Positions 5,008 to 62,961 of a DNA stretch of 64,000 nucleotides are shown here, piece by piece. The stretch is taken from the IMG/VR virus record IMGVR_UViG_3300019360_000002, positions 19,536 through 83,535 of that record; one strand, written 5' to 3'. Position 1 is the stretch's first letter. Every line of letters begins with the position of its first letter. The notes beneath the pieces are model-generated. The model saw only the letters and a program-made list of their open reading frames with translations. It was not told the DNA's origin and did not search any database. Origin of the DNA: a virus. Made by a program: the position numbers and the translations under genes.

Positions 5008-6921
5008 ATGGCTAACGTGTTTCTCGACATCATCGTTCCGACCTCCAACGGCCCTGGCCCAGCGGTCAACATCGCGGCTTTGGGCTACCTCAAGCGGTTC
5101 TCGATGACGGGCGTGTTCGAAGGCACCGTCAACATCGAGATCTCAAACGATGGTGTCTTGTGGTCTCCGCTCACCACCTTCGTGGCCCCCGGCGACATCA
5201 AGAAGTCGTTCGCGGCGGGCTTCGTTCGCGCCAACGTGGTCGGCTACGTGTCCGGCGCCGCCGATCTGTCGGTCGGTTCGGACAACCCGGGCTCGGTGAT
5301 CGCGCTTCTGCCGGTGCCGGCTGGCAACGGTGTCGGAGCGCCCGTGATCGTCTCGGCGATGGGTCAGAACAAGACCTTCATCTACGACGGCGGCATGGAA
5401 GCCTCCATCATCATCGAGGTGAGCCAAGACGGTGTGACCTTCTCGCAGGCGGCAGCGTTTTCCGGCATGACGCCGGCCAACGTCAACGTCTGCGGCGCCA
5501 TCCAACAGGTGCGTATCCGTGTCGCCGGCTTCGTCATCGGCACGGCCGCTGTGTCGATGTGCGCCATCGTCGACTCCAGCGGTGGCGGCGGTGGCAGCGC
5601 CGGAGCCTTCGTTCCGATGGCCGGGCCGTTCCTCATTGGAGCCGGCACGCCCACGCGCTCTGGCGTCGGCATCTACGTGAACCCGATCGATCCGACGGCT
5701 GCCGACGACGGTAACCCGAGCACGCCCAAGCTCACCATCCAGGGCGCGCTCGACTCGATGACGCCGCAGGCCGGCGACGCGATCGAGGCGCAGAAGAGCT
5801 ACACCATCTTCGTCGCGCCCGGCTGCTATGACGCCGACATCAGCATCCCCAACAGCGTGTTCGCCTGGGCGATCAAGGTGACCCTCGTCGCACTCGGGCA
5901 CGTCACCATCGGCGACGGTGTGAACCCTGACGGCTCGTCCACGGTGCCGCGTAACGTGTTCTGGTCCACCGTGGGTACCGGCGAGTTCGGCTCCGAATCG
6001 TACGTCTCGTTCACCGCCCTCGATCCAGACGTGGCCTTCGGCGGCCCTCCCCCCGTACCGACTTGCTGGCGCGTCTCGGGCGACATCGTAGTTTCAGCCG
6101 TGGCCTTCGGAGGTGATCCGCCTGCGCCTGGTGGCCCGGCTGGTCCCCACACGCTGTGGCTCCATTCGATGCGCGTCGACGGCGGCATGAACACAACCAC
6201 CGACTCGCCGACCATCCGCTTCGTCTTCAGCGATGTGATCATCGTGGGCGACGCGATCTGCTTCACCGGTCCGCTTCTCCAAGCAGAACACGTATCCTTC
6301 TTCGGCGCCGCCCACTTCGCTGGTTGCGGCCTCGTCGAGAACAGCAACTTCCTTGGCGCGCTCACCAACTTCGAGGGCGGCTCTGTTCTCGCGGGTAGCG
6401 GAATGTTCGGGTGTCAAATCACCCTGAACCTCACCATCGCAGGCGGCGGTGTCATCTTCGTCGACGCCGTTACCAACAAGAATCTCGTCACCAACGGCGT
6501 GGTCGTAGTCGGCGGCGGCATGAAACTTCCAGCGCACGACGACCAAACGGTGATGTTCTGGGGCAACACCGATGTCGGCGCGGCTGCGGACACTCGCTTC
6601 CTCACACCCGGTTACGATACGGGGACTGCCAGTCTCACCAACGACAAGGAACTCGGTAACGGCGGCACCAAGACCGCGTACTGTCTCGAAGGCCGGCACA
6701 ACAACCCGGACGCTTCGGGCTTCAACGTCGTCTACACCCTGGTCGTGGACGGGGTTCCGTCCCTGCTCACGCTCACGCTGCCGGCCGGGGCGCCAGCGGG
6801 CAACAGCGCGCTTGTGAACGTCGATCTCGCCAGCGCCACCAAAATCTCCCTCCAAGCTGTGAAGACCGGCGCGCTCGTCGACGGTCTCCTCGGCGCGACC
6901 ATCACCCTGCGCGGCTACTAG
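5008..6921 (+). CDS. Fibre-like protein, paralogue 2, with beta-helix-like region
   Basis: 637 residues with AAGGAG upstream. Residues 1-95 and 97-190 repeat the double domain of the 1299 gene. A Gly/Ser hinge near 192-200 leads into a region (about 210-540) with parallel-beta-helix character, including a YVNPIDPTAADDGNPSTP-type entry motif seen in pectate-lyase-like fibre and tailspike folds. The last 70 residues form a separate beta-rich tip. An enzymatic tailspike is possible, but no catalytic residues can be assigned by eye. Confidence 0.75.
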   Translation: MANVFLDIIVPTSNGPGPAVNIAALGYLKRFSMTGVFEGTVNIEISNDGVLWSPLTTFVAPGDIKKSFAAGFVRANVVGYVSGAADLSVGSDNPGSVIALLPVPAGNGVGAPVIVSAMGQNKTFIYDGGMEASIIIEVSQDGVTFSQAAAFSGMTPANVNVCGAIQQVRIRVAGFVIGTAAVSMCAIVDSSGGGGGSAGAFVPMAGPFLIGAGTPTRSGVGIYVNPIDPTAADDGNPSTPKLTIQGALDSMTPQAGDAIEAQKSYTIFVAPGCYDADISIPNSVFAWAIKVTLVALGHVTIGDGVNPDGSSTVPRNVFWSTVGTGEFGSESYVSFTALDPDVAFGGPPPVPTCWRVSGDIVVSAVAFGGDPPAPGGPAGPHTLWLHSMRVDGGMNTTTDSPTIRFVFSDVIIVGDAICFTGPLLQAEHVSFFGAAHFAGCGLVENSNFLGALTNFEGGSVLAGSGMFGCQITLNLTIAGGGVIFVDAVTNKNLVTNGVVVVGGGMKLPAHDDQTVMFWGNTDVGAAADTRFLTPGYDTGTASLTNDKELGNGGTKTAYCLEGRHNNPDASGFNVVYTLVVDGVPSLLTLTLPAGAPAGNSALVNVDLASATKISLQAVKTGALVDGLLGATITLRGY

Positions 6922-11354: not shown

Positions 11355-11383
11355 TTGACACACAACAAATTTTTGTTTAGCCT
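11355..11383 (+). promoter_or_regulatory. Promoter with operator in spacer, leaderless output
   Basis: TTGACA (11355-11360), 17-base spacer, TAGCCT (11378-11383). The spacer holds the palindrome-like AACAAATTTTTGTT (11364-11377). The ATG at 11391 lies 7 bases after the -10, where transcription should start, so the mRNA is predicted leaderless. The operator resembles that in front of the HTH gene at 42978. Confidence 0.65.
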
Positions 11384-27696: not shown

Positions 27697-28605
27697 TTAC
27701 CCCTTGGCCAGGAGCTTCTTGATCTTGGCCACGAACTCCTCCCCCTCGCGCTTGGTCGGCCAGTCGACCATGAACGGGGTCACAGACGGATCGCCGATCA
27801 GCACGCGCAGCGCCTCCAGCTCGACGGCCGAGAACGTCATGGCGTTGAGCTTGAAGTCCTCGAACGCTTCCCAGGCGAGGGGACAGCGCGCCTTGACGAA
27901 TGAAGCCATCGCCTCGGCGAACACGCGAATCTCGTACTGCGCGTGCTTGTCGAGGCGCAGCCCGAGGAAGTGGAGCAGGTTGTGGAGGTCGATCTTCCAG
28001 TACCAGCGGGTATACGCCGAGAGCGGCAGGTTGATGCGCGCCAGCTCACGCGCGAGGCCGCCGCCCTGGGAGAGTTCGTAGGTGTCGTTCGGGTGCAGGG
28101 CACGCTCGGTCTCCTGCTCATCCGGCTGCGTCTTCGGGACCTGTTGGCCGAGGTATTCGTGGTAGTGAAGGAACGCCGTCTTGGCATCATCGAGCATGGC
28201 CTCGGCGATCTTAATCGCGATCGCTTGCGGGATTGGCTCGGCGCTCCCTTGCTTGTTGGTCTTCGATTGGAAGCCCATCTCCTTCGGCAACGGCGTGTAG
28301 AAGATGTCCGGCAACATCGAGTACCGAGCACTCACCTCGTTCACGCTCGCGGTGCGGTGCCTGATCCACTGCCGAGCCACGAAGATTGGCATCTGGCAGT
28401 GGAACTTGAACTCACACATTTCGAACGGGGTTGTGTGCCGGTTCCGGTAGAGGTACCGGATGAGCGCCCGATCCTTGGCCTCGTCCGGCTCTTGCTTGTC
28501 CCGCTGGTAGCTCACGCGCGCCGCCTGGAGGATGGCCTGGTCGTCGCCCATCACATCGACGAGTTCGACAAAGCCGTGGTCCAGACACTTGATCGGGTCG
28601 CTCAT
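27697..28605 (-). CDS. thyX: Flavin-dependent thymidylate synthase
   Basis: 302 residues. The signature RHRTASVNEVSARY (about residues 82-95) is the ThyX motif that binds FAD and dUMP; SAYTRWYWKIDLHNLLHFLGLR supplies the conserved H-N-LxxFLxLR segment. Makes dTMP from dUMP using methylene-tetrahydrofolate and NADPH. It works with dcd (12 kb) and dTMP kinase (30 kb). Somewhat longer than bacterial ThyX, as is common in phages. Confidence 0.92.
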   Translation of the reverse strand: MSDPIKCLDHGFVELVDVMGDDQAILQAARVSYQRDKQEPDEAKDRALIRYLYRNRHTTPFEMCEFKFHCQMPIFVARQWIRHRTASVNEVSARYSMLPDIFYTPLPKEMGFQSKTNKQGSAEPIPQAIAIKIAEAMLDDAKTAFLHYHEYLGQQVPKTQPDEQETERALHPNDTYELSQGGGLARELARINLPLSAYTRWYWKIDLHNLLHFLGLRLDKHAQYEIRVFAEAMASFVKARCPLAWEAFEDFKLNAMTFSAVELEALRVLIGDPSVTPFMVDWPTKREGEEFVAKIKKLLAKG

Positions 28606-29480: not shown

Positions 29481-29962
29481 TACCCGTCCGCCCGCACGCT
29501 GTGGAACTCGACCACCTCATCGAGCGTGGTGCAGACCTGGGTCACGGCGTTGTCGTCCTCGGGGCCGTCGCCGTCGTTCTCGGTCAGGTACATCAGCTCG
29601 GCCGTGATCGGCTCGCCGGGCGGCAGGTAGATGGACACCGGCTTGCCCTTGCCGATCGCCCAGCCGGCCTCGATGTGCGCGGATCGGCCAGAAGGCAGGA
29701 TCAGGCAGAACTCGTCGGCCCACTTCATGGCACCGAAGTCGGAGTTGAAACCGGCCTGCGCGAGCGGATGCTGGAGGGCCTTCTTGTACTGCTCGGCCGT
29801 CCAGCTCTGCCAGTTCGGGTCGATCTCCGACCACGCGAACCCCTTGAGGCCGTGCGGCGGGTTTCGGAAATCGTATACCTCCAAGCCTGCCTTGCGCAGT
29901 GCCTCGACGACGCCGGGGTAGTAGGTGTTCTTCCACGACGACGCCACGTAGATCTTGCTCAT
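29480..29962 (-). CDS. Nucleoside 2-deoxyribosyltransferase-like protein
   Basis: 160 residues from ATG 29962 (MSKIYVASSW). Rossmann-like start IYVASSWKN, then DFGAMKWADEFCLILPSGRSAHIEAGWAIGKGKPVSIYL, which matches the catalytic Asp/Glu region of the deoxyribosyltransferase family (HIEAG with the nucleophilic Glu). Such enzymes swap bases on deoxynucleosides or hydrolyse dNMPs. AAGAAAGGA upstream is inside the dTMP kinase frame, separated by a run of eight C. Confidence 0.7.
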   Translation of the reverse strand: MSKIYVASSWKNTYYPGVVEALRKAGLEVYDFRNPPHGLKGFAWSEIDPNWQSWTAEQYKKALQHPLAQAGFNSDFGAMKWADEFCLILPSGRSAHIEAGWAIGKGKPVSIYLPPGEPITAELMYLTENDGDGPEDDNAVTQVCTTLDEVVEFHSVRADG

Positions 29963-30602
29963 GAGATGGGGGGGGTCCTTTCTTCTTGTGAATCGCAAGC
30001 ACCTTCTCGGCCATGTGCTTGACGTTTCTCTCGATGGACATTTCGCCATCGATGAGTTCGAGGAAGGGCGATCGCTTCGCCATGCCTCGGTAGCGGGCGC
30101 GCTTGTCGGCGAGGTTCTTCTCGTAGATCTCGTTCTTCGCCTCGCCGTTCTTGCCCGAACGCGCGGCGATGCGCGCCTCGGCGACGTGAATGCCTACGTC
30201 GACGATGAAGCCGATGTCGGGGCGGATGAACTGGTCGAGCTGGATGATCTCGGCCACCGCCTGCTCGTTACGGCTCTCGTCGACGTTGTAGGCGAACGCG
30301 GTGATGGGCGTGTACCGGTCGCAGATCACGATTTGCCCCTTGTCGAGGGCGACACGAAGATCGATCTGCGAGTCGAGCGCGTCGGCGACAAAGAGGTAGA
30401 GCATCGACTCCAGCCGACACAGCTTCGGATCGGTGAACACTTGGCGGATGAGCTGGCCGGGCGCGGTGGTCTTGGTCGGGAAGCGAAAGAGAAAGGGCGA
30501 GTTGACGGCCGTGGCGAGCTTCTCCGCCAAGGTCGACTTGCCACCGCCGTCGATACCGTCGAGAATCACGAGCGTACCGGGGTCGGAGATCACGTTGATC
30601 AT
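29517..30602 (-). CDS. tmk: dTMP kinase, frame reads through at a C8 run
   Basis: P-loop LDGIDGGGKSTLAEKL (about 14-29), DRY motif in VICDRYTPI (~96) and an Arg-rich lid near 150-170 identify thymidylate kinase, dTMP to dTDP. The enzyme part ends near residue 210 at a run of eight C on the minus strand (about 29968-29975). As written the frame continues out of phase over the next gene to 29517, adding 150 unlikely residues. One extra C would give a stop overlapping the next ATG (ATGA); one fewer would fuse the two proteins. Confidence 0.82.
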   Translation of the reverse strand: MINVISDPGTLVILDGIDGGGKSTLAEKLATAVNSPFLFRFPTKTTAPGQLIRQVFTDPKLCRLESMLYLFVADALDSQIDLRVALDKGQIVICDRYTPITAFAYNVDESRNEQAVAEIIQLDQFIRPDIGFIVDVGIHVAEARIAARSGKNGEAKNEIYEKNLADKRARYRGMAKRSPFLELIDGEMSIERNVKHMAEKVLAIHKKKGPPPSHEQDLRGVVVEEHLLPRRRRGTAQGRLGGIRFPKPAARPQGVRVVGDRPELAELDGRAVQEGPPASARAGRFQLRLRCHEVGRRVLPDPAFWPIRAHRGRLGDRQGQAGVHLPAARRADHGRADVPDRERRRRPRGRQRRDPGLHHAR

Positions 30603-30952
30603 CGCCTCTTCCTTCCGTTGTCGGGCTTGAGCGCTCTAATCTCGAACTTGGATAGCCGCCCGGTGGGTGGTCTCGGGCCAACGAACACCGAGCCTTTGCC
30701 GTCGCAGCCCGTGCACTTTGTCCCGCGACTGTACCCGCGTCCAGCACAACCGTGGCACTTGTGCCAGCCCCGCTTCTTCGCCTTGGGCGGGTCGACTGGC
30801 CTTGCCACCACCCGGCCAGGGTCTACCTTGGGCTTACGCCCACGCCGCTTCTCTGCGATCTCGTGGACGAGATGCACGCCCGCGATGTCGCAGCGATCGT
30901 CTCGACAGATGGCAGCTAGGTCGCTCAAGGAGTCGGGCTTCTTCGTGGTCAC
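30599..30952 (-). CDS. DnaJ-type zinc-knuckle protein
   Basis: 117 residues, GTG start in GTGA overlap. CHGCAGRGYSRGTKCTGCDGKG carries two CxxCxGxG repeats, the unit of the DnaJ cysteine-rich domain, here without a J domain. Basic ends. Possibly a chaperone-like or nucleic-acid-binding protein. Its stop overlaps the dTMP kinase start. Confidence 0.6.
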   Translation of the reverse strand: MTTKKPDSLSDLAAICRDDRCDIAGVHLVHEIAEKRRGRKPKVDPGRVVARPVDPPKAKKRGWHKCHGCAGRGYSRGTKCTGCDGKGSVFVGPRPPTGRLSKFEIRALKPDNGRKRR

Positions 30953-31533
30953 TGTTCGTCGTCAGTGAGTTCGAGCTTCATGACGAAACGGCGAAGGAGG
31001 TACCGACAGACGTAGTCGACCGGCGACTTGGCCATCCGAATGCCGGGCGTGTTGGTCCGCCCCGACGGCTCGAAGCTCGTACCGATGAGGCGCCTGCACA
31101 GGTCTTCGAGCGGGTGGCCGAGCTGGAGCAGGATTGAAGAGGCGATGGCCCACTGGTCGGCGAAGCCCGAGGCGACCGAGCCTTGTTTTGCGAGGCGCAA
31201 GAAGAACTCGCCCACTTCGCCGTTTGGATAGAAGCTCACCGTCACGTAGCCGTCCTCGTCGCCTTCAGCCGAGTGGATGGTGAACTTGTGGGTGAGTGAC
31301 TGGCGTTCGGCCGGTAGTTTGACGCGGCGCGGCAAAGAGGTTGCGGCCGACAGGTCGGCGAGCTTGACCCCCAGCTCGTCCCTGGCGGCCACAGCCGCCT
31401 TCAGATGGGCCTGGGAGCGCGCCAGGTCGCTCGTGAGCTGCCCGACCTGGGTGGTTGCTTGTTCCAGCTCGGCCCGGGTTTCGGCGAGCTGGGCTCGGCA
31501 GGTGTCTAGGTGAGTGGTCGTGAACTTGGGCAC
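30949..31533 (-). CDS. TSCPD-domain protein with N-terminal coiled coil
   Basis: 194 residues from GTG 31533. Residues 10-65 are a coiled coil. Residues 80-190 (YVTVSFYPNGEVGEFFLRL, ADQWAIASSILLQLGHPLEDLCRRLIGTSFEP) match the TSCPD domain found at the end of some ribonucleotide reductases and as a free-standing phage protein. Role of the free form is unclear. Predicted leaderless from the promoter at 31540-31568, and it opens the leftward metabolic operon. Confidence 0.65.
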   Translation of the reverse strand: MPKFTTTHLDTCRAQLAETRAELEQATTQVGQLTSDLARSQAHLKAAVAARDELGVKLADLSAATSLPRRVKLPAERQSLTHKFTIHSAEGDEDGYVTVSFYPNGEVGEFFLRLAKQGSVASGFADQWAIASSILLQLGHPLEDLCRRLIGTSFEPSGRTNTPGIRMAKSPVDYVCRYLLRRFVMKLELTDDEQ

Positions 31534-31539
31534 GGCGAA

Positions 31540-31581
31540 ACAGTGCCAAATGCGGGTGGGGCGGTCAACAAATATTTGTTG
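31540..31581 (-). promoter_or_regulatory. Leftward promoter with CAACAAATATTTGTTG operator
   Basis: Minus-strand TTGACC (31568-31563), 17-base spacer, CACTGT (31545-31540), then six bases to GTG 31533, so a leaderless transcript is predicted. A perfect 16-bp palindrome CAACAAATATTTGTTG (31566-31581) overlaps the -35. This is the most symmetric version of the ACAAA/TTTGT operator in the window. Confidence 0.6.
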
Positions 31582-31638
31582 TAAAAGGATTTATTTTTTA
31601 GAGAGGTCGCAACCCTACACACGACAGAGGCAACGCTA

Positions 31639-31814
31639 CACCAATTGTAATGGCGCCTAGAGTTTTGACCGTTTTTTGATGAAAACATTTGAATTTCTCA
31701 AGTGGTCATACCACTAATTGATCAGGCGCCAAATGCGTCCGATCAATTAGTGGTCAGACCACTAACTTAAATAGCGACAAAAGTCGGTTTCTCTAGCCGA
31801 CATTACAATTGGTG
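31639..31814. other. Nested inverted repeats, candidate replication origin
   Basis: Outer arms 31639-31662 and 31791-31814 are 24 bases long with two mismatches (core CACCAATTGTAATG / CATTACAATTGGTG). Inner arms 31701-31723 and 31741-31763 are 23 bases with two mismatches around a 17-base centre; each inner arm is itself palindromic (AGTGGT-N3-ACCACT). The surrounding 31534-32189 has no credible gene, is AT-rich, and separates leftward from rightward transcription next to the primase-helicase. AATTGATC recurs at 31951. Confidence 0.6.
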
Positions 31815-32094
31815 CCGGGTTGTCTGGTTTTTGCGCGGGGTTGACGCCCGCCGTTTTGCCCAGGTGTTTCGCCTGTTTAAGTCCGTGCGTAGGGTTTTGG
31901 GGTGTTTTTAACTATATGCGAGAAATATGCGTTAATTGGAAAACGACGGAAATTGATCGGCTACCCGAAATTAGCGTTTTTTGGGGGTATTTCATTTCTC
32001 GCGCGCCTTGAATTAAAGTGAAATATTTGTATGAGTTTAGAAGGCCCCTTAACCCTGCACAGCGATTACCTTACCTGGCAAAAAATCGAATTTC

Positions 32095-32124
32095 TTGACC
32101 TCTGACTACAGCATGGCGTAGATC
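32095..32124 (+). promoter_or_regulatory. Putative promoter for replication genes
   Basis: TTGACC (32095-32100), 18-base spacer and TAGATC (32119-32124) lead to ATG 32190 of the primase-helicase gene, with a leader of about 60 bases and GGGAG before the ATG. Moderate match only. Confidence 0.4.
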
Positions 32125-32189
32125 ATCAGCCCTCGGGTAGTTTGACCATCAGACGACCTCTGGCGTGGGGGTCGCGAAAGGGAGCGGGG

Positions 32190-34973
32190 ATGCTCGATGA
32201 GGCGCGCAGCTTCTTCAAGCTGCTATGGCCAGACACGTCGCTCGTGGACCACCTTCGCGTCACGCTGTGGCGGCTACCCGATCGAGCCAGCCTCCACGTC
32301 CCGCCGTCGAGCGTCCTGGATGCCCTCCAGGGCTTCGCCACCCTGCCGGTGGCCACCGGGACGTTCGACAAGCCCTACGAGCCCGCCAGCGGGCCGCCAG
32401 GCACGCACGCGATGTATTACGGGGTCGGGCTGCGCCGGCCTGATCTACCGCCGACCAGCCGAGGTCTCGACGACGATGTGACGGCCTGGCCGGGAGTCTG
32501 GGTCGACCTCGACTACGGCACAGAGGGGCACGCAGGTGAAAACTACCCGCCTACCGATAGGGAAGCGCTGGAAATTGCAGATAAATTTCCTGCGCCTCCA
32601 ACACTGACCGTGCAGTCAGGTCACGGTTTTCACTTGTACTGGTTGTTCGACAAGCCGCTGGTCGGGGACAGCAAGAAGTTTTCTAGTCTTATTAAAGGGT
32701 TACAGAAGAAGTTTCGGGAGCTTGCTGCGCCCTTTTCAGTCGACAAGACGGACGACGTAGGCCGTGTGCTCGGCATCCCTGGCCTTTGGAACTGCAAGAA
32801 GCTGGTCCCGCCCGTGCGAGTCGCAATTTTGCTTGACGACGGACCGCGCTACAAGATAACAGACCTGGAAGCTTTTCGCGGACGCCCCGGACGCCCGCTC
32901 AAATCCCCGCCGCCCGCCGCCACCGGTCAAGCCGTTCAAGGGCCGCCACCCTTAGACAGCGGAATTAAGACCGGTGGCGGTGCCGGCTCTTCTGCAAAAC
33001 GTGGCCGCCCCGCCAACGTCGACAAGTGGCCGGCGTGGGTGCTGGGCGTGCGTCGCCGCGTCAAGAACACGACCGACGCCGAGAAGAAGCGCCGAGCTGA
33101 GCTACTCATCGATGGCGAGCCGTTCGCCGAGTCGGGCGAGCGGAATAACACTTGCAACAGCATGGTGGGGCTGCTCACGAACTACGTGTTCAAGGAGAAG
33201 CCGCAAGCGACAGCCGAGGAGGTCTACGACACCTTCTTCTCCGCCGCCATCATCAAGATGGCGCTTCTAGAAGACGACCCGTCGAACCCGGCTCTGCAAA
33301 AGGACGAGGTGCTCGGCCAGATCTCACGCATGTGGGAACTCGTGCTCGAAGAGGACGCGCGTGCCAAGGAGCAGGCCAAGCGGTTCGCCGACGCGCTTCG
33401 GCGTGGCGCGCTTCGGCGCAAGGGCGGAGGCGGAGGAGGCAACGGAAGTAACGGTCACGCGAACGGCAACGGTCACGCGAACGGTCACGGTGAACCGGAA
33501 CCGGGCGGTAGTTCCACCCAGGCGCTTGTGGTGCGCGAATCCGAGCCTGAGATAGGCGAGTACGACACGCCTGATGGGTTGCCGCCCGTGCCTCCGCCGC
33601 AGAGCCACGACGCGTTCGGCGAAGATCCGCTGGAGCTGCTCATCATCCAGTACGAGGATGCCTACTTTGTCTGGCGCGATGAGCAATACAAGGCTCCGGT
33701 GTCGAGTAAAGCCCTGGAGACGAGCCTACGTCGTGACCTCGCCTACGCAGACGGCGTGACGTGGTACTACGAGAACGACAAGGGGGTCGAGAAGCGAAAG
33801 ACCCTCCAGCAGTTCAAGAACGACTACTGCACAGTGGCGCGGCACCTCGTCTTCGATCTCACCAATCCGAACACCGAGTACGACCCGGACTCGGAGACGC
33901 TGTTCGTGGCCGCAGCGCCACTGCGTGACCTGGAGCCGACGTTCAACGAGCACATCCACGAGTGGCTCACGCTCTTCGGGGGAGACGGCGCCGATCGCCT
34001 GATCGATTGGATTGCCACCATCACGGATCTCTCCTATCAAAGCTGCGCTCTTTACGCCTCCGGGCACTCGCGTACGGGTAAGTCGCTCCTCGCCCAAGGG
34101 CTTGCCAAGCTGTGGAGCGCACACGGAGAGCCGACCGCGCTCAAAAATGTGTTGGAGAACTTCAATGCGGACCTGCTTCGCTGCCCGCTCATCCACGCCG
34201 ACGAAGCGCTTCCGTACGGAACCCACACCACCGACTTGCGCGAGATGATTGGCTCGTCGAGCCGTACCGTCACGCAGAAGTATTTGCCGAATGCCACTTT
34301 GCGGGGCGCAATTCGCATGGTGCTCACTGCCAATAACCACGACATGCTGGCGACCGGCGACGAGCATCGAGGCCCGCAGGACGTAGAAGCGGTCGCGGAG
34401 CGGTTTTTACACATCACGCCGCCCGCGTCGGCAGGGAAATTTTTGGCCGAGCTGGGCGGCAAGGCAGGTAAGACAAAAGACTGGGTGGATGGGGACCTAA
34501 TCGCCCGTCACGCGCTCTGGTTGCGGGACCACAAGCGGATCGGGTTTGTCCCCGGCACACGTTTCATCGTGGAGGGCACCAAGACCGAGGTGCACCGCGC
34601 ACTCGTCATGTCTGGTCCCGTGTCGTCGCTGGTCCTTGAGTGGCTCGCCAAGTTTTTGAACAAGCCGCTCGCGGGAGTCATCAAGCAAGGGCTCGTGCTC
34701 TGGGGTAACGGTGAGCTGCTCGTCAACACCTCGGCCATCACCGACCACTGGGAGCACTTCATCAATTCTCACCCGGTGTACTCGACCACGCGCATCGGCA
34801 CCGCTCTCCGCTCCATCGCACGCGGGCTGAGGCGAGGGGACGGTCCGCACCGGAACAAAAACTTCTGGATCGTCGACCCGATGTACGTGATCGACTGGGC
34901 GCAGCAGAACAACATCGGCGACGTGGACGCGATGTGGACCAGCATCAACACCGCCAAGCCGGTTCTCAACTGA
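32190..34973 (+). CDS. Primase-helicase (primase-like N-terminus, SF3 helicase)
   Basis: 927 residues from ATG 32190, chosen for AAAGGGAGCGGGG upstream. N-terminal part has VWVDLDYG (~103) and SGHGFHLYWLFDKP (~142), typical of RepB-like/archaeo-eukaryotic primase-polymerase domains. A low-complexity Gly/Asn/His linker spans about 414-445. The C-terminal part is a D5/SF3 helicase: Walker A GHSRTGKSLLAQ (~625), Walker B region LIHADEAL (~666) and LTANNHDM (~710). Combines primer synthesis and unwinding at the fork, downstream of the candidate origin. Confidence 0.87.
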   Translation: MLDEARSFFKLLWPDTSLVDHLRVTLWRLPDRASLHVPPSSVLDALQGFATLPVATGTFDKPYEPASGPPGTHAMYYGVGLRRPDLPPTSRGLDDDVTAWPGVWVDLDYGTEGHAGENYPPTDREALEIADKFPAPPTLTVQSGHGFHLYWLFDKPLVGDSKKFSSLIKGLQKKFRELAAPFSVDKTDDVGRVLGIPGLWNCKKLVPPVRVAILLDDGPRYKITDLEAFRGRPGRPLKSPPPAATGQAVQGPPPLDSGIKTGGGAGSSAKRGRPANVDKWPAWVLGVRRRVKNTTDAEKKRRAELLIDGEPFAESGERNNTCNSMVGLLTNYVFKEKPQATAEEVYDTFFSAAIIKMALLEDDPSNPALQKDEVLGQISRMWELVLEEDARAKEQAKRFADALRRGALRRKGGGGGGNGSNGHANGNGHANGHGEPEPGGSSTQALVVRESEPEIGEYDTPDGLPPVPPPQSHDAFGEDPLELLIIQYEDAYFVWRDEQYKAPVSSKALETSLRRDLAYADGVTWYYENDKGVEKRKTLQQFKNDYCTVARHLVFDLTNPNTEYDPDSETLFVAAAPLRDLEPTFNEHIHEWLTLFGGDGADRLIDWIATITDLSYQSCALYASGHSRTGKSLLAQGLAKLWSAHGEPTALKNVLENFNADLLRCPLIHADEALPYGTHTTDLREMIGSSSRTVTQKYLPNATLRGAIRMVLTANNHDMLATGDEHRGPQDVEAVAERFLHITPPASAGKFLAELGGKAGKTKDWVDGDLIARHALWLRDHKRIGFVPGTRFIVEGTKTEVHRALVMSGPVSSLVLEWLAKFLNKPLAGVIKQGLVLWGNGELLVNTSAITDHWEHFINSHPVYSTTRIGTALRSIARGLRRGDGPHRNKNFWIVDPMYVIDWAQQNNIGDVDAMWTSINTAKPVLN

Positions 34974-36569: not shown

Positions 36570-37286
36570 GTGTTGAAGATCGTAAAGCGCGGGCTAGCGG
36601 TCATCTGCGAGTTGCTTCAGATTGGGGTGTTCCTCATTCTGTTACCGATCGACTATGCTGGTATCAAGCTTCGTCGTGTAGCTGCCCGGCTTACGCGACA
36701 CCCGTACTACTGGTTGGTTCAGTCCAAGCGCTTGCTCCGTGGGGAGCCGACTTGGCAGGAACACGATTGGAAGATCGGCATTCCACCGCCAGGGTGGAAG
36801 CCGGTGCCGTGTGATATTCGCGAGTTCGCACAAAAGGCCAGGGGCGAGGTAGTCGAGGAGAAGGAGGAGAAAATGGACGCGTCGGATAATCCGATGAAGC
36901 CTCGCTTCTGCGCCAATTGCGGCGAGATCGTGTCGTGGAACTACCCGTCGGGCGACGAGACGTGTGCCGAGGTCGCGTGCCAGCACTGCGGCGCCGGCTA
37001 CGACATCTGCTTCGACGGGTGCAGTGTGCGAGCAGGCCGACAGCGGGACGAGAAGGACGCCAAGCTAGGTCGCGAGCTGGTGGCGCTCCTCTCCGAGGTC
37101 GTCGGCGACAGCGGTGTGTCGGAGGGAGCTGTCGATTGCCTGAAGCGGCAAATTGCGGATCGCAAGGCGTTCGCTTTGGCACTCAGGGAAGTAGATCAAT
37201 TCATGTTCGCCGCATGCATGCTCTGCCATCGCAAGCACGCTCAGGATTGTCCGTTTCACAGAGCAATGGCGATCTACATCCGGTAA
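36570..37286 (+). CDS. Membrane-anchored zinc protein
   Basis: 238 residues, GTG start after GGGGTAGG. Residues 8-30 are hydrophobic (AVICELLQIGVFLILLPIDYAG), then basic; the second half has CANCG, CQHCG and a C-terminal CMLCHRKHAQDCPFH cluster. A second start at ATG 36873 with AAGGAGGAG could produce the soluble zinc part alone. A perfect palindrome lies at 37153-37165. Function unknown. Confidence 0.5.
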   Translation: MLKIVKRGLAVICELLQIGVFLILLPIDYAGIKLRRVAARLTRHPYYWLVQSKRLLRGEPTWQEHDWKIGIPPPGWKPVPCDIREFAQKARGEVVEEKEEKMDASDNPMKPRFCANCGEIVSWNYPSGDETCAEVACQHCGAGYDICFDGCSVRAGRQRDEKDAKLGRELVALLSEVVGDSGVSEGAVDCLKRQIADRKAFALALREVDQFMFAACMLCHRKHAQDCPFHRAMAIYIR

Positions 37287-39124
37287 TGCCCACGCTGTCT
37301 GAAAAGCTGATGGCCAAGTTCGGCCTGCCGCACCCACGGTCGAGCGCCGGATTGGCACTTGCGCAGGGTGGTGTATGTCTTTCGCCTGAGCTGGCGCGCA
37401 TCCTGGCGCTGCCCAGGCGACCGGCGGAAGGCTCTGCGCCTGATCTCACCGAGCTTTACTCAAGGGGTGTGGCGAACTGCGGCGTCGCACACTGCCGAGT
37501 GTGCGTGGCCGGCGAGCCAAGGCTTCGGCCCATCCAGTCCCAGATGCTCTGGGAGGGCGACCGTCGGCAAGGGCTCCTCGGCATGGCCAAGATCGGCTCG
37601 GGTAAGACGCTCGCCTCCCTGCTCATGCATGACGCGATGAACGCCACCCGCACCGTGCTGCTCGTCAAGTCGAGTCTGCGTGATCAGCTCATTAACATCG
37701 ACATCCCAGCCTACGGCCGCCACTTCAAGCTGCCCCCGGTTTGGTCCGCCAAGAACACCAGAAACTACGAGCGCTCGGGCGTGTACGTGCTCTTCTATCA
37801 CGAACTGTCGGATTCGCACAAAGGCCATTGGCTTGAGCGCATTGCGCCCGACCTAGTGGTTGCTGACGAGGCGCAGGTTTTCCGTAACGTGCATTCGGCT
37901 CGGTCCAAAAAGTTCTACCGCTACATGGACGAGCACCCGGAGTGTCGGTATTGTCCGCTATCCGGGTCGATTGCCAAGCGGTCAATCCGCGATGTAGGAC
38001 CGCCGAGCGAACTTGCGCTTCGCAAGGACAGCCCGCTGCCCAAGGGACGGGCGCTCTTCGAGTGGTCGTGTGCGCTCGATCGCGACGTGGAAAAGCCACT
38101 TGGCCCCGGCAAGCTCATGCTGTTTTGCGGCCCCGGCGAGGACCATCACGACGGTTTCCGTCGGAGACTTCGCGAGACCGAAGGTGTGGTGGCGTCGGAG
38201 AAAGACACTATCGACACGGCGCTTGAGGTCTTGCCGCATAGTCCACCGCTCTCGCCGGTCATTAGCGCCGCCTTGGCTGAGCTGGCCAGGCTGTGGCGCT
38301 GGAACGAAGACGAGATTTCCGACGCGCTCCACTATGCGCGTCTCGCCAAGCAGATCGCCCAGGGCTTCTACCTCAAGTGGGATTGGCCCGGCGGTGTGCT
38401 CGATGAGGAATGGCTCACAGCGCGGTCAGCCTGGCACAAGGAGGTGCGCGAGTACCTTCGCTACCACTCAGTTCCAGGAATGGACTCCACGCTCCAGCTC
38501 GCCAATGCCGCACGCCACGGGCACTGGCTGTCTGAGGCGTGGCCCGCCTGGAATGTGGTCAAGGACCGACCCGAGCCGCCCACCGAGGCAGTGTGGCTAG
38601 ACACCGCGTACATGCCGGGTGTGGTGGCCAACCTCGTCGAGGAACTGAACGCGTCCGACGAACCGCTCGGGAAAAAGAACGCTTCGGGCGCGACGCGAGG
38701 TCTCATTATATGGTATGAAAACATATCAATGGGCGACCTCTTGGAGAAGACGTACCCGAGATTCGGTCCAGGCGATCGAGCGGCTGCGCAATTGGCAAAG
38801 ATGCACCCGAAGGACCACCCGGTCATTGTGTGCTCTCGGGCATCGCACGGTGAGGGGAAGAACCTTCAGGACTACACCGATGCGTTCTTCATCACGCCGC
38901 CGGCCAACTCCCTTGATTGGAATCAGACAGTCGGTCGTGAGCTGAGGCCCGGCCAACTGGCAGATACGGTACGGGTGAAATGGCTGGCGAACACCATCGA
39001 CCTTCAGAAGGCGTTCGTGAACGCGGTCAAGAACGCCGAGACCTTGCAGAAAAACACGGGTGAGGAGCAAGTGCTCCTGATCGCCGACGGAGCGGCCCTA
39101 GCAGAGACGGCGAAGGCCGCGTGA
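37286..39124 (+). CDS. DEAD/SNF2-type helicase
   Basis: 612 residues from ATG in TAATG overlap. RPIQSQMLWEGDRR acts as a Q-motif-like entry, Walker A is AKIGSGKTLASLL (~100-112), Walker B is VVADEAQVFRN (~190), and SGSIAKRS fits motif III. The C-terminal half has VIVCSRASHGEGKNLQDY and NQTVGRELRPGQ, resembling motifs V and VI of superfamily 2. Probably a branch-migration or replication-restart helicase working with the neighbouring polymerase. Confidence 0.82.
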   Translation: MPTLSEKLMAKFGLPHPRSSAGLALAQGGVCLSPELARILALPRRPAEGSAPDLTELYSRGVANCGVAHCRVCVAGEPRLRPIQSQMLWEGDRRQGLLGMAKIGSGKTLASLLMHDAMNATRTVLLVKSSLRDQLINIDIPAYGRHFKLPPVWSAKNTRNYERSGVYVLFYHELSDSHKGHWLERIAPDLVVADEAQVFRNVHSARSKKFYRYMDEHPECRYCPLSGSIAKRSIRDVGPPSELALRKDSPLPKGRALFEWSCALDRDVEKPLGPGKLMLFCGPGEDHHDGFRRRLRETEGVVASEKDTIDTALEVLPHSPPLSPVISAALAELARLWRWNEDEISDALHYARLAKQIAQGFYLKWDWPGGVLDEEWLTARSAWHKEVREYLRYHSVPGMDSTLQLANAARHGHWLSEAWPAWNVVKDRPEPPTEAVWLDTAYMPGVVANLVEELNASDEPLGKKNASGATRGLIIWYENISMGDLLEKTYPRFGPGDRAAAQLAKMHPKDHPVIVCSRASHGEGKNLQDYTDAFFITPPANSLDWNQTVGRELRPGQLADTVRVKWLANTIDLQKAFVNAVKNAETLQKNTGEEQVLLIADGAALAETAKAA

Positions 39125-51531: not shown

Positions 51532-52125
51532 GTCGGTTTCGTCCCTTTCCGCTGGGGTCAACATCCTCGCCCCGGGCTATGCGCTCGATGATGTCGGAAC
51601 TTCTTCCCCGTTCCGCTGGGGTTGTCACCTGCTTGTTGGGACGCATGCGAATCCTCCCGTCTGCGTGTCGGAACTTCTTCCCCGTTCCGCGGTGGTTGTC
51701 ACGCGGCCAAGCAGCCTCATGCGCTTCCGGTCCACGTAGTCGGAACTTCTTCCCCGTTCCGCGGGGGTTGTCACGGCGCCGATGTTTGCCACGGCTGTCG
51801 GAACCTCTTCCCCGTTCCGCGGGGGTTGTCATCCGCTGCCTGCCACGAGTCACCTCTACAGCTTGACGGTCGGAACTTCTTCCCCGTTCCGCGGGGGTTG
51901 TCACCCGGTTGTCGTTGATGTAGATCTGGCACTTCAAGATCAGGTCGGAACTTATTCCCCGTTCCGCTGGGGTTGTCACAGGACTGTCCGTCATCATTGA
52001 TGGATGGTTTCCGTCGTCGGAACTTCTTCCCCGTTCCGCGGGGGTTGTCACCTGCGAACCCTTGCTCGCGTGGGCGTGCTACCGACCGAGTCGGAACTTC
52101 TTCCCCGTTCCGCGGGGGTTGTCAC
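51532..52125 (-). CRISPR. Type V CRISPR array, 8 repeats plus degenerate end
   Basis: Eight 36-base repeats at 51593, 51667, 51739, 51797, 51869, 51944, 52016 and 52090 (starts), with a decayed ninth at 51532-51564. Spacers are 36-39 bases except one of 22 (51775-51796). Read on the minus strand each repeat starts GTGACAACC and ends GGAAGAAGTTCCGAC. GGAA/TTCC forms a 3' hairpin, and the two substitutions there (copies at 51797 and 51944) fall in its loop, so the stem is preserved, as expected for a crRNA handle. The decayed repeat lies farthest from the cas gene, indicating transcription from the cas side. No cas1 or cas2. Confidence 0.95.
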
Positions 52126-53717
52126 GGCGCATCCTGATTCGCCTTGGCGGGTGCGGAGTTAATGCGGCGCTTGCGAGCGCCATCGCGCATCCGCTCCTGC
52201 CGCGCCGATAAGCCTGCGGATCCATTACCGGCGTCCGGGTCCAGCACGTGCGCGCTCGCGCTCGCTAGCAAGTTCGTGCCTGCCTGTTCGTCCTGGTCGG
52301 TCGCGACGCCGCAGCTCTGGCAGGTGAGCATGAGCTGGCGGCGCTCATCGTCCTTCCAGTCGTTTACATGCCCGCACTGGCAGCAGCGCAGTGTGGTGTC
52401 GGCGGCGGGGGCGTCGAGCACGATACAGCCGTGCGTGGCCTGGCGCAGCGTGGACACCAGCTCGCCGGGCGCGGCCCAGCGCTGGAGGATGCGCTCGTGG
52501 TGACGAGACGGCGCCTCGCCGTCGCGCTTCTCTCCGAACGTCGTCAGGCCGCTGTCATCCTCGACGGCGATCACCTCGTAGCGCCGTGTCCAGGTTGCGG
52601 CGAGTTGCCGGAATTGCTCCTGACGGATGTGCTGTGCGCGCCTTCGGTGCTCGGCCGCCTGGCGCACCGCCGAGCGCCACATGAGCGCGGCGGCAGGGGC
52701 AGTGCCCTCCGTCTTGAGTCTTGCAACCAGCGAAAGGAGGCGCTCTCGCTTGCGAGGCCACGCTATCTCGGGGTGATCGGCGCGCAGCGCGTTCTGGAGG
52801 TCATCGGCTTCGCCGTCGAGCCCAGCGGCGCGGGTGTAGAGCGTTTCGACGCGCGGATCGAGCCGCACCTCCTCCTGTCGTCCCGCCGAGTCGACGAGGT
52901 AGGCGAGGCGTACGCCGCCGTCGGGAAGCCTGCGCCAGCCCACGTCGAGGCCGGCACGGTCGCGCGATCCAGTTGACGCCCGATCCAGTCCCCGATCCGC
53001 TGGGGTCTCGCACACAAACTGCACGGTCCAGCGCACGAGTGGACCAACGGGCACACGCTTCGCCACCACCCACTTCACTACCGCGCCCTCGGCGATCGGC
53101 CGGTGGTAGCGGATCTGGAAGCGCGCGAAGATGGGTTCGCGGCCTTCAGACCCGATACGCAGGAGGGCGTCGGCCAAACAGCGACCTGCGCCACCGCCAT
53201 ACTTCTTGTCGCTGACCGCGAGGCGTACGCGCGTGTCTTCTCCGAGCAACTCCGTTACGGAGGCCCCGTTCTGGAGCTGGACGGCGATCAGGCCGCTGCG
53301 GTCCCAGCGACGAAAGGACGGACGCGGGCTCCGGCTCGCCTGCTCAGCCGCCTTTTCGACTTGGAGGTACGTTCCCCAGTACACACCACACACGGCACGC
53401 GCTCGCCGGATGATGTCTCGGTAGCGTTCGTTGATGGTCATGAGCACACTCTTCGCCGGTCCCGCTGCGGCGCGCTTTCGCGCTTCACGAACCATCTTCC
53501 AGGCGGCGTCTTTGTCGGCATGAGGCGCGTCGGGCGGGAGACTGAGCGCCGTGGCCCGTTCGTCGACGCTGTGCTCATCGAGAGTGTTAGAGACGGCACC
53601 GAAGCGAGCGCGCGCCATCTCCACGAGGAGGTTGTAGTAGCGGTGCGCCCGCCACAACTGGTCCTCGACATCACGCTCGTGATCCATGAGCCGCGCGCCG
53701 TACTTGTACACGATCAT
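52122..53717 (-). CDS. Compact Cas12 nuclease (Cas12m-like, type V)
   Basis: 531 residues. RuvC-I Asp258 in AGLDVGWR, RuvC-II Glu386 in IAVEDDSGL, RuvC-III Asp476 in DQDEQAGTNLL, and a zinc ribbon with Cys445/448 and Cys466/469 just before it. N-terminal half is the helical/wedge region; WDRSGLIAVQLQNG (138-151) closely resembles Cas12m. Size suits a V-U1/Cas12m effector, whose characterised members bind target DNA without cutting because a RuvC acid is lost; here all three acids remain. The stop codon lies in the first CRISPR repeat. A TnpB transposase is less likely given the array and N-terminal match. Confidence 0.88.
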   Translation of the reverse strand: MIVYKYGARLMDHERDVEDQLWRAHRYYNLLVEMARARFGAVSNTLDEHSVDERATALSLPPDAPHADKDAAWKMVREARKRAAAGPAKSVLMTINERYRDIIRRARAVCGVYWGTYLQVEKAAEQASRSPRPSFRRWDRSGLIAVQLQNGASVTELLGEDTRVRLAVSDKKYGGGAGRCLADALLRIGSEGREPIFARFQIRYHRPIAEGAVVKWVVAKRVPVGPLVRWTVQFVCETPADRGLDRASTGSRDRAGLDVGWRRLPDGGVRLAYLVDSAGRQEEVRLDPRVETLYTRAAGLDGEADDLQNALRADHPEIAWPRKRERLLSLVARLKTEGTAPAAALMWRSAVRQAAEHRRRAQHIRQEQFRQLAATWTRRYEVIAVEDDSGLTTFGEKRDGEAPSRHHERILQRWAAPGELVSTLRQATHGCIVLDAPAADTTLRCCQCGHVNDWKDDERRQLMLTCQSCGVATDQDEQAGTNLLASASAHVLDPDAGNGSAGLSARQERMRDGARKRRINSAPAKANQDAP

Positions 53718-55470: not shown

Positions 55471-56457
55471 CTACTCGGCGGCCTTCTTGCCCTTCTTGCC
55501 CTTCTTGCCGCCCTCGCCGGCCGCCCACTCCTTCGCCTTGGCCGCCGCCTCCTTCGCCTTCTCCTTGGCGTTGGCCTCGGCCGCCTTCACGAAGTCCTTC
55601 CAGTCCGAGCCCATGCGGCCGAGCGCGATGGAGCCCTGGGCGAAGCGCAGGGTGTCGAACACGCCCTGCACGTAGTCGGTGCGCTTGACCTCCTTCTCGT
55701 CGGTCTCGTCGACGATCTGGACCATGGCCTTCAGGATCTTCGTCCCCGGGCGGTCCGACTTGCCCGCCTTCGCCTTGGCGGCCTTGCGTGCCTTCGACTT
55801 GCCCGACCGGCCGCCCGAAGCGATCGCCTTGAGCGCCTCGTCGACGCCCTCCTCCTGCGTGTCGAAGTCGTACTTGCCGGGCTTGTCGTCCTCGCCCTCG
55901 ACCCACTTGGCGGTCTTGGCCAGGGTTTCCACCGTGTCATCGGCGAGCTTGCCCGACTTCCACGCCTTCTTGAGCGCCGGGCCGCACTTCTCCAGGGCGT
56001 CGAGCTTGCGCGACACCCAGGTCTCCGACTTGTGGAGCGCCTTGGCGATGGTCTTCTGGTTGTCGCCCATGAGCTTCAGCTCGGCGCACTGCACCGCGAT
56101 CTCGTACGAGGAGAGCGCGTCGCGCAGGATGTTGTCGGCGAGGGCGTTGTAGCGCGCGTCCTTGAGCGTGTCGCCGGAGACGAAGTGGCACGGCACGCCC
56201 TGGGAGAAGCCGTTGGCGCGGCCTTCCTCGATGAGCAGGGTGATCGCGGCCTCGCGGCGGAAGCCGCCCACGAGCACCATGATCTCCTCGCCGTCCTTCT
56301 GCGTCTTCCACACCTGGAGCGGGTTCAGAAGCCCCCGCGCCTCGATGTCGTCGGCGAGGTTCTTGATGTCCTCCAGCTTCTCGCGCGGGTTCTTGAAGCC
56401 GACCTCCTCGCCAGGGGTCAGCTCGTCGAGCTTGATGGTGTCGTAGTTTGAATCCAT
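55471..56457 (-). CDS. ParB/KorB-like DNA-binding protein
   Basis: 328 residues from ATG 56457 with GGAGGACG upstream. ParB-type nucleotide-binding part: RGLLNPLQVW (41-50), VLVGGFRREAA (61-71), ADNILRDALSSYEIA (107-121, cf. EN.xR..L...E.A), then an HTH at about 132-155. The lysine- and alanine-rich C-terminus differs from chromosomal ParB. KorB-type proteins bind 13-bp palindromes scattered over a replicon and both segregate DNA and silence genes; a 13-bp palindrome lies just upstream of this start. Candidate reader of the TTGCG-N3-CGCAA sites. Confidence 0.8.
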   Translation of the reverse strand: MDSNYDTIKLDELTPGEEVGFKNPREKLEDIKNLADDIEARGLLNPLQVWKTQKDGEEIMVLVGGFRREAAITLLIEEGRANGFSQGVPCHFVSGDTLKDARYNALADNILRDALSSYEIAVQCAELKLMGDNQKTIAKALHKSETWVSRKLDALEKCGPALKKAWKSGKLADDTVETLAKTAKWVEGEDDKPGKYDFDTQEEGVDEALKAIASGGRSGKSKARKAAKAKAGKSDRPGTKILKAMVQIVDETDEKEVKRTDYVQGVFDTLRFAQGSIALGRMGSDWKDFVKAAEANAKEKAKEAAAKAKEWAAGEGGKKGKKGKKAAE

Positions 56458-61610: not shown

Positions 61611-62096
61611 GCGCGAGTAGTTTTCGTACAGGCGCTCGGCGCTCGTATCCCCATAGACAGCCGGCTGGTCCTTGATCCAGTGCAAATGGCCAATGACCAC
61701 GCCGCGAACGCTCGTTGGAATCGACAAGCAGAACTCCTTGACCGAGTTGAAGTGGAAGTAACCCACTCCGTTTATAGTGTTACGAATCGCCTCGGCTGCC
61801 GCGCGCCACGTCGTCTTGGGCAAAACGACGTATTCGTACGGGCGATTGCCCTTGCGCGGCACCAGACGCAACTCGTGCCTGTCAAACAGGATCTCCGACA
61901 CATGAAGTACGGCGTCGTACCACTTGTGAAACAGTTCATCGCGAGCCTCGTCCTGAGCCTTGTTCTGCTCATCTTCGCCCTCGACGCCCCTAGCGGACTC
62001 CAAGTAGTAATCGACGTTATAGTCGTCAAGCTTATCCCATGAGATGAGCCTGAACATCTCGGCTAGCTCGTCGATGTTTATCTTGTGAGTCGCCAT
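61608..62096 (-). CDS. Hypothetical protein
   Basis: 162 residues. Acidic helical N-terminus (YYLESARGVEGEDEQNKAQDEARDEL), then an alpha/beta part with VGYFHFNSVKEF and GHLHWIKDQPAVYG. Start ATG 62096 just after the stop of the 62099 gene. Unknown function. Confidence 0.5.
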   Translation of the reverse strand: MATHKINIDELAEMFRLISWDKLDDYNVDYYLESARGVEGEDEQNKAQDEARDELFHKWYDAVLHVSEILFDRHELRLVPRKGNRPYEYVVLPKTTWRAAAEAIRNTINGVGYFHFNSVKEFCLSIPTSVRGVVIGHLHWIKDQPAVYGDTSAERLYENYSR

Positions 62097-62098
62097 CT

Positions 62099-62233
62099 TC
62101 AGACCTCTCGCGTGACGCGATAGTTTCCCTCGTAGTCAGTGCTCCACTCGGCCACAAGACCTGAGACGAGGTTTTTGCCTCGAAGCGTTGTGCGCGTACC
62201 AACGGTTGCGACTGATTCTTTGAGGGAGTTCAT
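62099..62233 (-). CDS. Small hypothetical protein
   Basis: 44 residues, ATG 62233 with a strong AGGAGGCAACC ribosome binding site, TGA at 62099-62101. Beta-rich; ends YEGNYRVTREV. The ribosome binding site and lack of other coding in the gap support it. Confidence 0.55.
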   Translation of the reverse strand: MNSLKESVATVGTRTTLRGKNLVSGLVAEWSTDYEGNYRVTREV

Positions 62234-62242
62234 GGTTGCCTC

Positions 62243-62959
62243 CTACGTGTGGATCGACCAGTCCGGCTTCTCATCCGACCCGTGATTGATGACGCCGCCG
62301 TTCATGCTTCGTATACCTTTCGGCGTGCGAATGTCGAAGTAGTAGCCGGCCGAATCACGGTGTAGGTTGACCACGGCCGACTCCCACACGTTGAACGTGG
62401 TGTTGCGTGCGATACGCTTGAGCTGGTCCAGCTTGTCACGGAGCCCTTGGTCGGTAGCGGCTCGCGTGAGCGCGTCGGTGCCGTGCGGGTCTACGTTCAC
62501 GCAACCCTTGGCTTGTCCGTAGCGTTCGAGTAGGCGCCGCCACGTCCGCTTGGGGATCTCGACCTCGTGCTCCGTCCCCTTGGGGGCACGATCCAAGTGC
62601 TTGAAGTGCCACCTTGCGAGTCGCAAGATGATCTTCTGTACCTGATACGGCATCGAGACAACCCGGAAAGGGATGTCGGCGCGTCCCGTCGTGGCTTGGG
62701 GCATCTCCCAGTCGAAGAAGGTCCACTGTTCGCCGTCGTGCTTGCACAGGTGGTAGCCGTCTACCGACATCGCTTGCTTGCCCGCGACCACGTGTTTGAA
62801 CTCGGCGCGCGTCCAGTAGAAGTACACCGACGCCATCGGCACTGGCGGACGCGGGTCATCGCGGGGGAGGTTGTACTCTGGGGTGTGCGCCCGCAGGATC
62901 ACGTAGTCGGCGCCATCCGCCTTGCGGAAGGTGAAAATGACGGTCTCGAAGTCGAGCAC
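62243..62959 (-). CDS. Hypothetical protein
   Basis: 238 residues, GTG start. Alpha/beta with several aromatic motifs (VYFYWTRAEFKHVV, WTFFDWEMPQ) and helical C-terminal third. A perfect palindrome (62614-62626) is internal. No family recognised. Confidence 0.5.
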   Translation of the reverse strand: MLDFETVIFTFRKADGADYVILRAHTPEYNLPRDDPRPPVPMASVYFYWTRAEFKHVVAGKQAMSVDGYHLCKHDGEQWTFFDWEMPQATTGRADIPFRVVSMPYQVQKIILRLARWHFKHLDRAPKGTEHEVEIPKRTWRRLLERYGQAKGCVNVDPHGTDALTRAATDQGLRDKLDQLKRIARNTTFNVWESAVVNLHRDSAGYYFDIRTPKGIRSMNGGVINHGSDEKPDWSIHT

Positions 62960-62961
62960 GA

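Follow-up and report, generated by a model that had tools for sequence, protein, structure and literature searches.

Does the AT-rich gap between two diverging gene blocks of this phage serve as an origin of replication, as a control region for transcription, or as both? The window, which is the whole stretch of DNA analysed here (64 kb), comprises bases 19536-83535 of an 83,535-base contig of an uncultured virus of bacteria, and the intergenic gap proposed as an origin or control region occupies 656 bases of it (31534-32189). The first-pass annotation had described this gap as AT-rich, as the point where the direction of transcription reverses and as the neighbour of a primase-helicase gene, and all three descriptions held. 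The left gene (30949-31533) lies on the minus strand and the right gene (32190-34973) on the plus strand, the latter being the primase-helicase gene, which starts at 32190. The 656-base stretch of lowest GC content in the 83.5-kb contig (31505-32160, GC 0.457) overlaps the gap. One small correction is needed, as the AT-richness sits in the arm spacers and the flanks of the palindrome described below, whereas its centre (17 nt) is GC-rich and the palindrome contains no AT-rich core. The leftward gene, for which a match to the TSCPD domain was obtained, adjoins a nucleotide-metabolism block with genes for a thymidylate kinase (29517-30602) and ThyX (27697-28605).

Two nested pairs of inverted arms had been reported in the gap, and both were recovered. 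The outer arms (31639-31662 and 31791-31814) match at 22 of 24 positions and the inner arms (31701-31723 and 31741-31763) at 21 of 23, and each inner arm contains, as had been claimed, a dyad of the form AGTGGT-N3-ACCACT (AGTGGTCATACCACT at 31701-31715 and AGTGGTCAGACCACT at 31749-31763). Local alignment of the two halves of the region revealed that both pairs are parts of one imperfect gapped palindrome of about 230 nt (31604-31845, ends approximate). From the centre outward, each half is composed of AATTGATC, the 15-nt dyad, a spacer and a 24-nt box, CTCTAGNCGNCATTACAATTGGTG. The left inner arm (plus strand) consists of AGTGGTCATACCACT followed by AATTGATC, and the right inner arm (minus strand) of GATCAATT followed by AGTGGTCAGACCACT, which extends to a 19-nt dyad, TTAGTGGTCAGACCACTAA, at 31747-31765. 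The box is read leftward as CTCTAGGCGCCATTACAATTGGTG in the left outer arm (minus strand) and rightward as CTCTAGCCGACATTACAATTGGTG in the right outer arm (plus strand). Dyad and box are separated by 38 nt on the left and 27 nt on the right, a difference of 11 nt or about one helical turn. The contig contains no further copy of the dyad or of the outer-box core at up to 2 mismatches.

In 200 shuffles of the gap, no 23-nt pair with at least 21 matches was obtained (best shuffle 18), and the best repeat of the gap reached a z-score of 12.2 against shuffled sequences. Throughout the 64-kb window, the outer and inner arms were the sole pairs that matched at 20 or more of 22 positions within 250 nt. 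A large stem-loop is predicted for the gap, with single-strand folding z-scores of -8.9 (251 nt) and -10.4 (inner 75 nt); a hairpin match in Rfam scored far below the gathering score and was rejected. No close relative was found, and searches with the arm pattern and at the loci of relatives identified none that shares the arm sequence, as might be expected for a palindrome that arose by chance, has no function or is a remnant of the ends of a mobile element. However, its score lies far above that of shuffles, the exact 15-nt dyad recurs in other phages and no transposase is encoded inside the gap, and we consider such an explanation very improbable.

The two outer arms each harbor an outward TACAAT (31644-31649 on the left, 31804-31809 on the right), which resembles a -10 element. 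This raises the alternative of a symmetric divergent promoter-operator with no origin, in which a dimeric regulator on the dyads would repress or activate mirror-image promoters with their -10 elements in the outer arms. With TACAAT taken as a -10 element, the predicted transcription starts would place the dyad centres near -60 and -71, a distance of one helical turn, in line with the 11-nt difference between the spacers. At CRP-type promoters, class I activator sites are found at such positions. The promoter role of TACAAT is suggested by its sequence and orientation, but the accompanying -35 sequences are poor, and a consensus scan for sigma-70 promoters (-35 and -10 hexamers at 16-18 nt) yielded no site, with TACAAT standing alone as a -10-like motif. 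Against this alternative also stands that the leftward gene has a likely promoter of its own, at the phage-wide element CAACAAATATTTGTTGACC. Just upstream of that gene, at 31566-31581, lies the perfect 16-nt palindrome CAACAAATATTTGTTG, with TTGACC next to it in the leftward direction. It is a copy of the phage-wide repeat CAACAAAWWTTTGTTG, for which 10 sites with at most 3 mismatches were detected in the contig (1.3 expected), located at window positions 11363, 15330, 20266, 21936, 31566, 34971, 35099, 42990, 58578 and 61594. Most of them precede a gene start by 12-60 nt, and several run into TTGACA-like sequence, suggesting that CAACAAAWWTTTGTTG is possibly a promoter or operator of the phage; the copy at 31566-31581 probably serves the leftward gene.

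Elsewhere in the window, a ParB/Spo0J-like protein is encoded at 55471-56457 on the minus strand (PDB 1vz0 at E 7e-6, weak KorB domain), and a search with the chromosomal parS consensus yielded no site in the window. A 531-aa TnpB-like protein with matches to phage transposase families and a Cas12f1-like TNB domain is encoded at 52122-53717, also on the minus strand.

Viral contigs were scanned for two copies of AGTGGT-N3-ACCACT, which led to G068 with six copies and G069 with five, nearly all of them with CAT in the middle like the left dyad of the window. These contigs are related to each other, and their proteins are linked to the window contig by very weak matches alone. The array of G068 lies inside its divergent gap and that of G069 one to two kb from the divergence point. 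No match to the primase family was obtained in G068 or G069, an empty search of this kind being weak evidence. Since the arrays occur there with no matched primase, the dyad is probably the operator of a regulator and not the private site of an initiator, and the inner arms are more likely to be regulator sites than private sites of the primase-helicase. The arrays at or near a divergence point speak for the promoter-operator alternative, as does the dyad core, which fits the consensus TKGT-N3-ACMA of FadR-subfamily operators (PMC4494728), but no GntR-family gene was detected in the window contig, G068 or G069. Possibly, though this seems unlikely to us, the inner arms are recognized by a regulator of the host, with the operator AGTGGTCATACCACT acquired independently by unrelated phages; origin firing or early transcription would then follow a host signal, to which the mirror design would couple both directions. 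The 15-mer dyad was not found in a literature search, and none of 195 genomes searched in the phylum to which G070 belongs contained the exact 17-nt dyad. Azospirillum plasmids match the dyad at an E-value of about 7; in the two annotated cases the match is intergenic and its location is identical, with a LysR gene on one side and a hypothetical gene on the other. That one exact dyad recurs in viral contigs which share no regulator gene suggests a regulator that merits identification. Arrays of 5-6 AAGTGGTCATACCACTT-like dyads in two related viral contigs were located at L226 624-880 and L227 1707-1880, the former adjoining AT-rich sequence in which CTACAATCAAA is repeated; Stenotrophomonas phages matched the L226 array at chance level, and these matches were dismissed.

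The gene at the right edge of the gap (32190-34973, plus strand) encodes a protein of 927 aa in which an AEP primase is fused to an SF3-type helicase and which is proposed to be a self-loading initiator. Its N-terminal part matches PHROG DNA polymerase/primase families and contains a DxD motif, while the C-terminal helicase matches DUF5906. Residues 481-927 were modelled with 47 sequences at a pLDDT of 93; the full-length model was poor (pLDDT 53) and was left out. In Foldseek, the top match of the 481-927 model was the C-terminal region of NrS-1 polymerase (E 2e-13, TM 0.55-0.6), followed by poxvirus D5/E5, the SaPI5 primase-helicase (7ola, 7pds) and SV40 T antigen. The adjacency of the gap to an AEP primase-SF3 helicase gene argues for an origin at this locus, as such proteins are associated with origins close by, examples being the stem-loop of pRN1 (PMC4234260) and the iterons of SaPI and SCCmec (PMC7581432).

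With such a neighbour, the inner arms might, one per strand, serve the AEP primase as paired sites of single-strand initiation, in the way that ssiA and ssiB serve RSF1010 RepB'. Each inner arm is predicted to fold alone into a 6-bp hairpin with AATTGATC as a conserved tail, and the two arms point inward, each on its own strand, reminiscent of the RSF1010 ssi sites and of the one site per strand of NrS-1. In addition, GTGG, which is used efficiently by NrSPol (PMC8718748), occurs in AGTGGT. However, GTGG comprises four bases only, the GTG motif of the pRN1 stem-loop is dispensable, and the dyads are also present in G068 and G069, where the primase was not found. We therefore regard paired initiation hairpins as improbable.

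Relatives were collected with two alignments, one of the polymerase (57 viral loci) and one of the primase (53 viral loci plus a bacterial contig). Searches in which the primase or PolA served as a single query found nothing, and neither did DNA pattern searches with the outer arms. Known phages contained no relative of the region at the DNA level (one 74-base match at 82%), and PolA reached 28% at best. All relatives are distant, with 25-43% identity over the helicase half, and an AT-rich gap from which genes diverge is often retained in them, upstream of the primase gene or its operon. This divergence gap ahead of the primase operon was readable in 36 cases, including the window. In 47% of these 36 gaps the observed inverted repeat was reached by none of 40 shuffles, compared with 18% of 66 tandem gaps; other divergent gaps, of which there were five only, likewise scored high, so that divergence itself may matter. 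Within 14 longer records, eight strong inverted repeats were located in 10.3 kb of gap and nine in 90.7 kb of other intergenic DNA (p = 1e-4). The sequences of the gap repeats vary from lineage to lineage, and in the nearest clade members (L127, L090 and L093) a palindrome like that of the window was not seen; in L090 and L093 the gap lies 4-5 genes upstream. Two observations among the relatives again favour a promoter-operator. An XRE-type HTH gene lies at the gap in several of them, and their repeats may thus be operators, and in G047 the sole strong inverted repeat is positioned at the divergence point, 13 genes away from the primase. As separate observations, L139 carries a very long inverted repeat (5464-5726) with nearly perfectly complementary 104-nt arms in the tandem gap behind its primase gene, and a 486-aa gene of L005 (6616-8076, plus strand) shows weak LAGLIDADG and transglutaminase-core matches and possibly bears an intein.

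Several relatives harbor iteron arrays in the divergent gap that heads the primase operon. The clearest array was found in G054, where GCTGTAA occurs 12 times, six in each direction round a core of 88% AT, which is the layout of an inverted-iteron origin. The gap of G049 contains CAGCACA 10 times and that of G053 CAGTACA seven times, and G055 and G008 have eight iterons each; all five counts exceed the maximum of 100 shuffles. The iteron TAACGCAG(C/T)ACAACA is common to G049 (61924-62960, 10 core copies) and G053 (37193-38125, 7 core copies), which are 95-96 kb phages of one clade with about 50% protein identity. In the window gap an iteron array was not detected, the top 7-mer being present in 4 copies and reaching up to 6 in shuffles, and opposed short iterons round an AT-rich core are likewise absent from it.

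GC skew was measured at fourfold sites and corrected for gene strand. A skew change at the gap was detected in G049 (F 51.8, the best of 91 positions) and G053 (F 47.5, second-best), and the score of the gap was reached by none of 120 and none of 110 circular shifts, respectively. As both phages belong to one clade, they count as one independent case, and their iterons at the skew switch are strong origin candidates. In G055 the skew at the gap was of opposite sign. The window contig, for which the first-pass annotation had proposed this check, showed no switch at the gap (F 0.8), nor did 12 other relatives tested. Phage origins need not show skew, and the missing switch in the window hence lowers the probability of an origin but does not exclude one.

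Taken together, the designation as probable origin stands in part. It is supported by position, given the divergent-gap location in relatives, their iterons and the skew switch of the G049/G053 clade, and by the NrS-1/SaPI5-type fold of the neighbour; a skew change, iterons and an AT-rich palindrome core are missing from the window itself. The arguments for an origin come from position, the neighbour's fold and the distant relatives, those for transcriptional control from the dyads and the outward TACAAT. A divergent promoter-operator with no origin, the chief alternative, leaves the skew switch and the iterons of the relatives unexplained, and we hold it to be a real possibility that falls short of probable. 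A composite region, in which an origin is combined with a symmetric divergent operator, accounts for most of the evidence, to which the window's own sequence adds symmetry and not skew or iterons; this is the reading we prefer, although we judge its chances to be evenly balanced.

From the anatomy and uniqueness of the palindrome, the predicted fold of the neighbour and the behaviour of the relatives, we infer the following steps of binding and initiation for the composite region. The gap would be the replication-control region of a module built round an NrS-1/SaPI-like AEP primase-SF3 helicase. As the neighbour's fold and the distant relatives suggest, the gap would act as origin, with the primase-helicase from the adjacent gene assembling on it, opening it and priming both strands. 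The two dyads would be operators bound by a dimeric regulator, which may control both of the gene blocks transcribed away from the gap; this regulator is probably not a GntR protein of the phage itself. The 24-nt outer boxes could be promoter elements that point outward (TACAAT) or sites bound by the initiator, and the mirror symmetry would provide the same set of sites for each direction. If the origin reading is true, AEP-SF3 phages would tend to keep their origin in the divergent gap that heads the replication operon, and the origin sites at this fixed location would differ between lineages.

The putative parts of this region resemble several known systems. The dyad core of the window, TGGT-N3-ACCA, is like the operators of the GntR/FadR subfamily (PMC4494728), although unlike in those systems the GntR gene is absent from the phage contig. 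The helicases of SaPI and SCCmec bind iterons that adjoin their genes on the downstream side (PMC7581432). The window resembles these self-loading helicases in the fold of its primase-helicase, and its relatives in the iterons beside the operon, whereas it has no iteron array of its own. pRN1, which encodes an AEP, SF3 and winged helix protein (ORF904), depends on a stem-loop adjacent to its rep gene, and phage BIP-1 has a stem-loop beside a similar gene (PMC4234260). A large stem-loop next to an AEP-SF3 gene is likewise predicted in the window, but those of pRN1 and BIP-1 lie downstream of the gene, whereas that of the window lies upstream, in the divergent gap, and comprises two dyads and two boxes. 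For NrS-1, the proposed origin consists of a pair of primase recognition sites, of which each strand carries one (PMC7102993). Unlike NrS-1, the window phage encodes a separate family A polymerase. The C-terminal helicase of the window is nevertheless nearest in the PDB to the fold of NrS-1 polymerase, an AEP prim-pol with a ring helicase, and it is by this fold and by an inverted pair of sites, for which the arms of the window are the putative counterparts, and not by TTTGGTTA, that the gap is likened to the NrS-1 origin.
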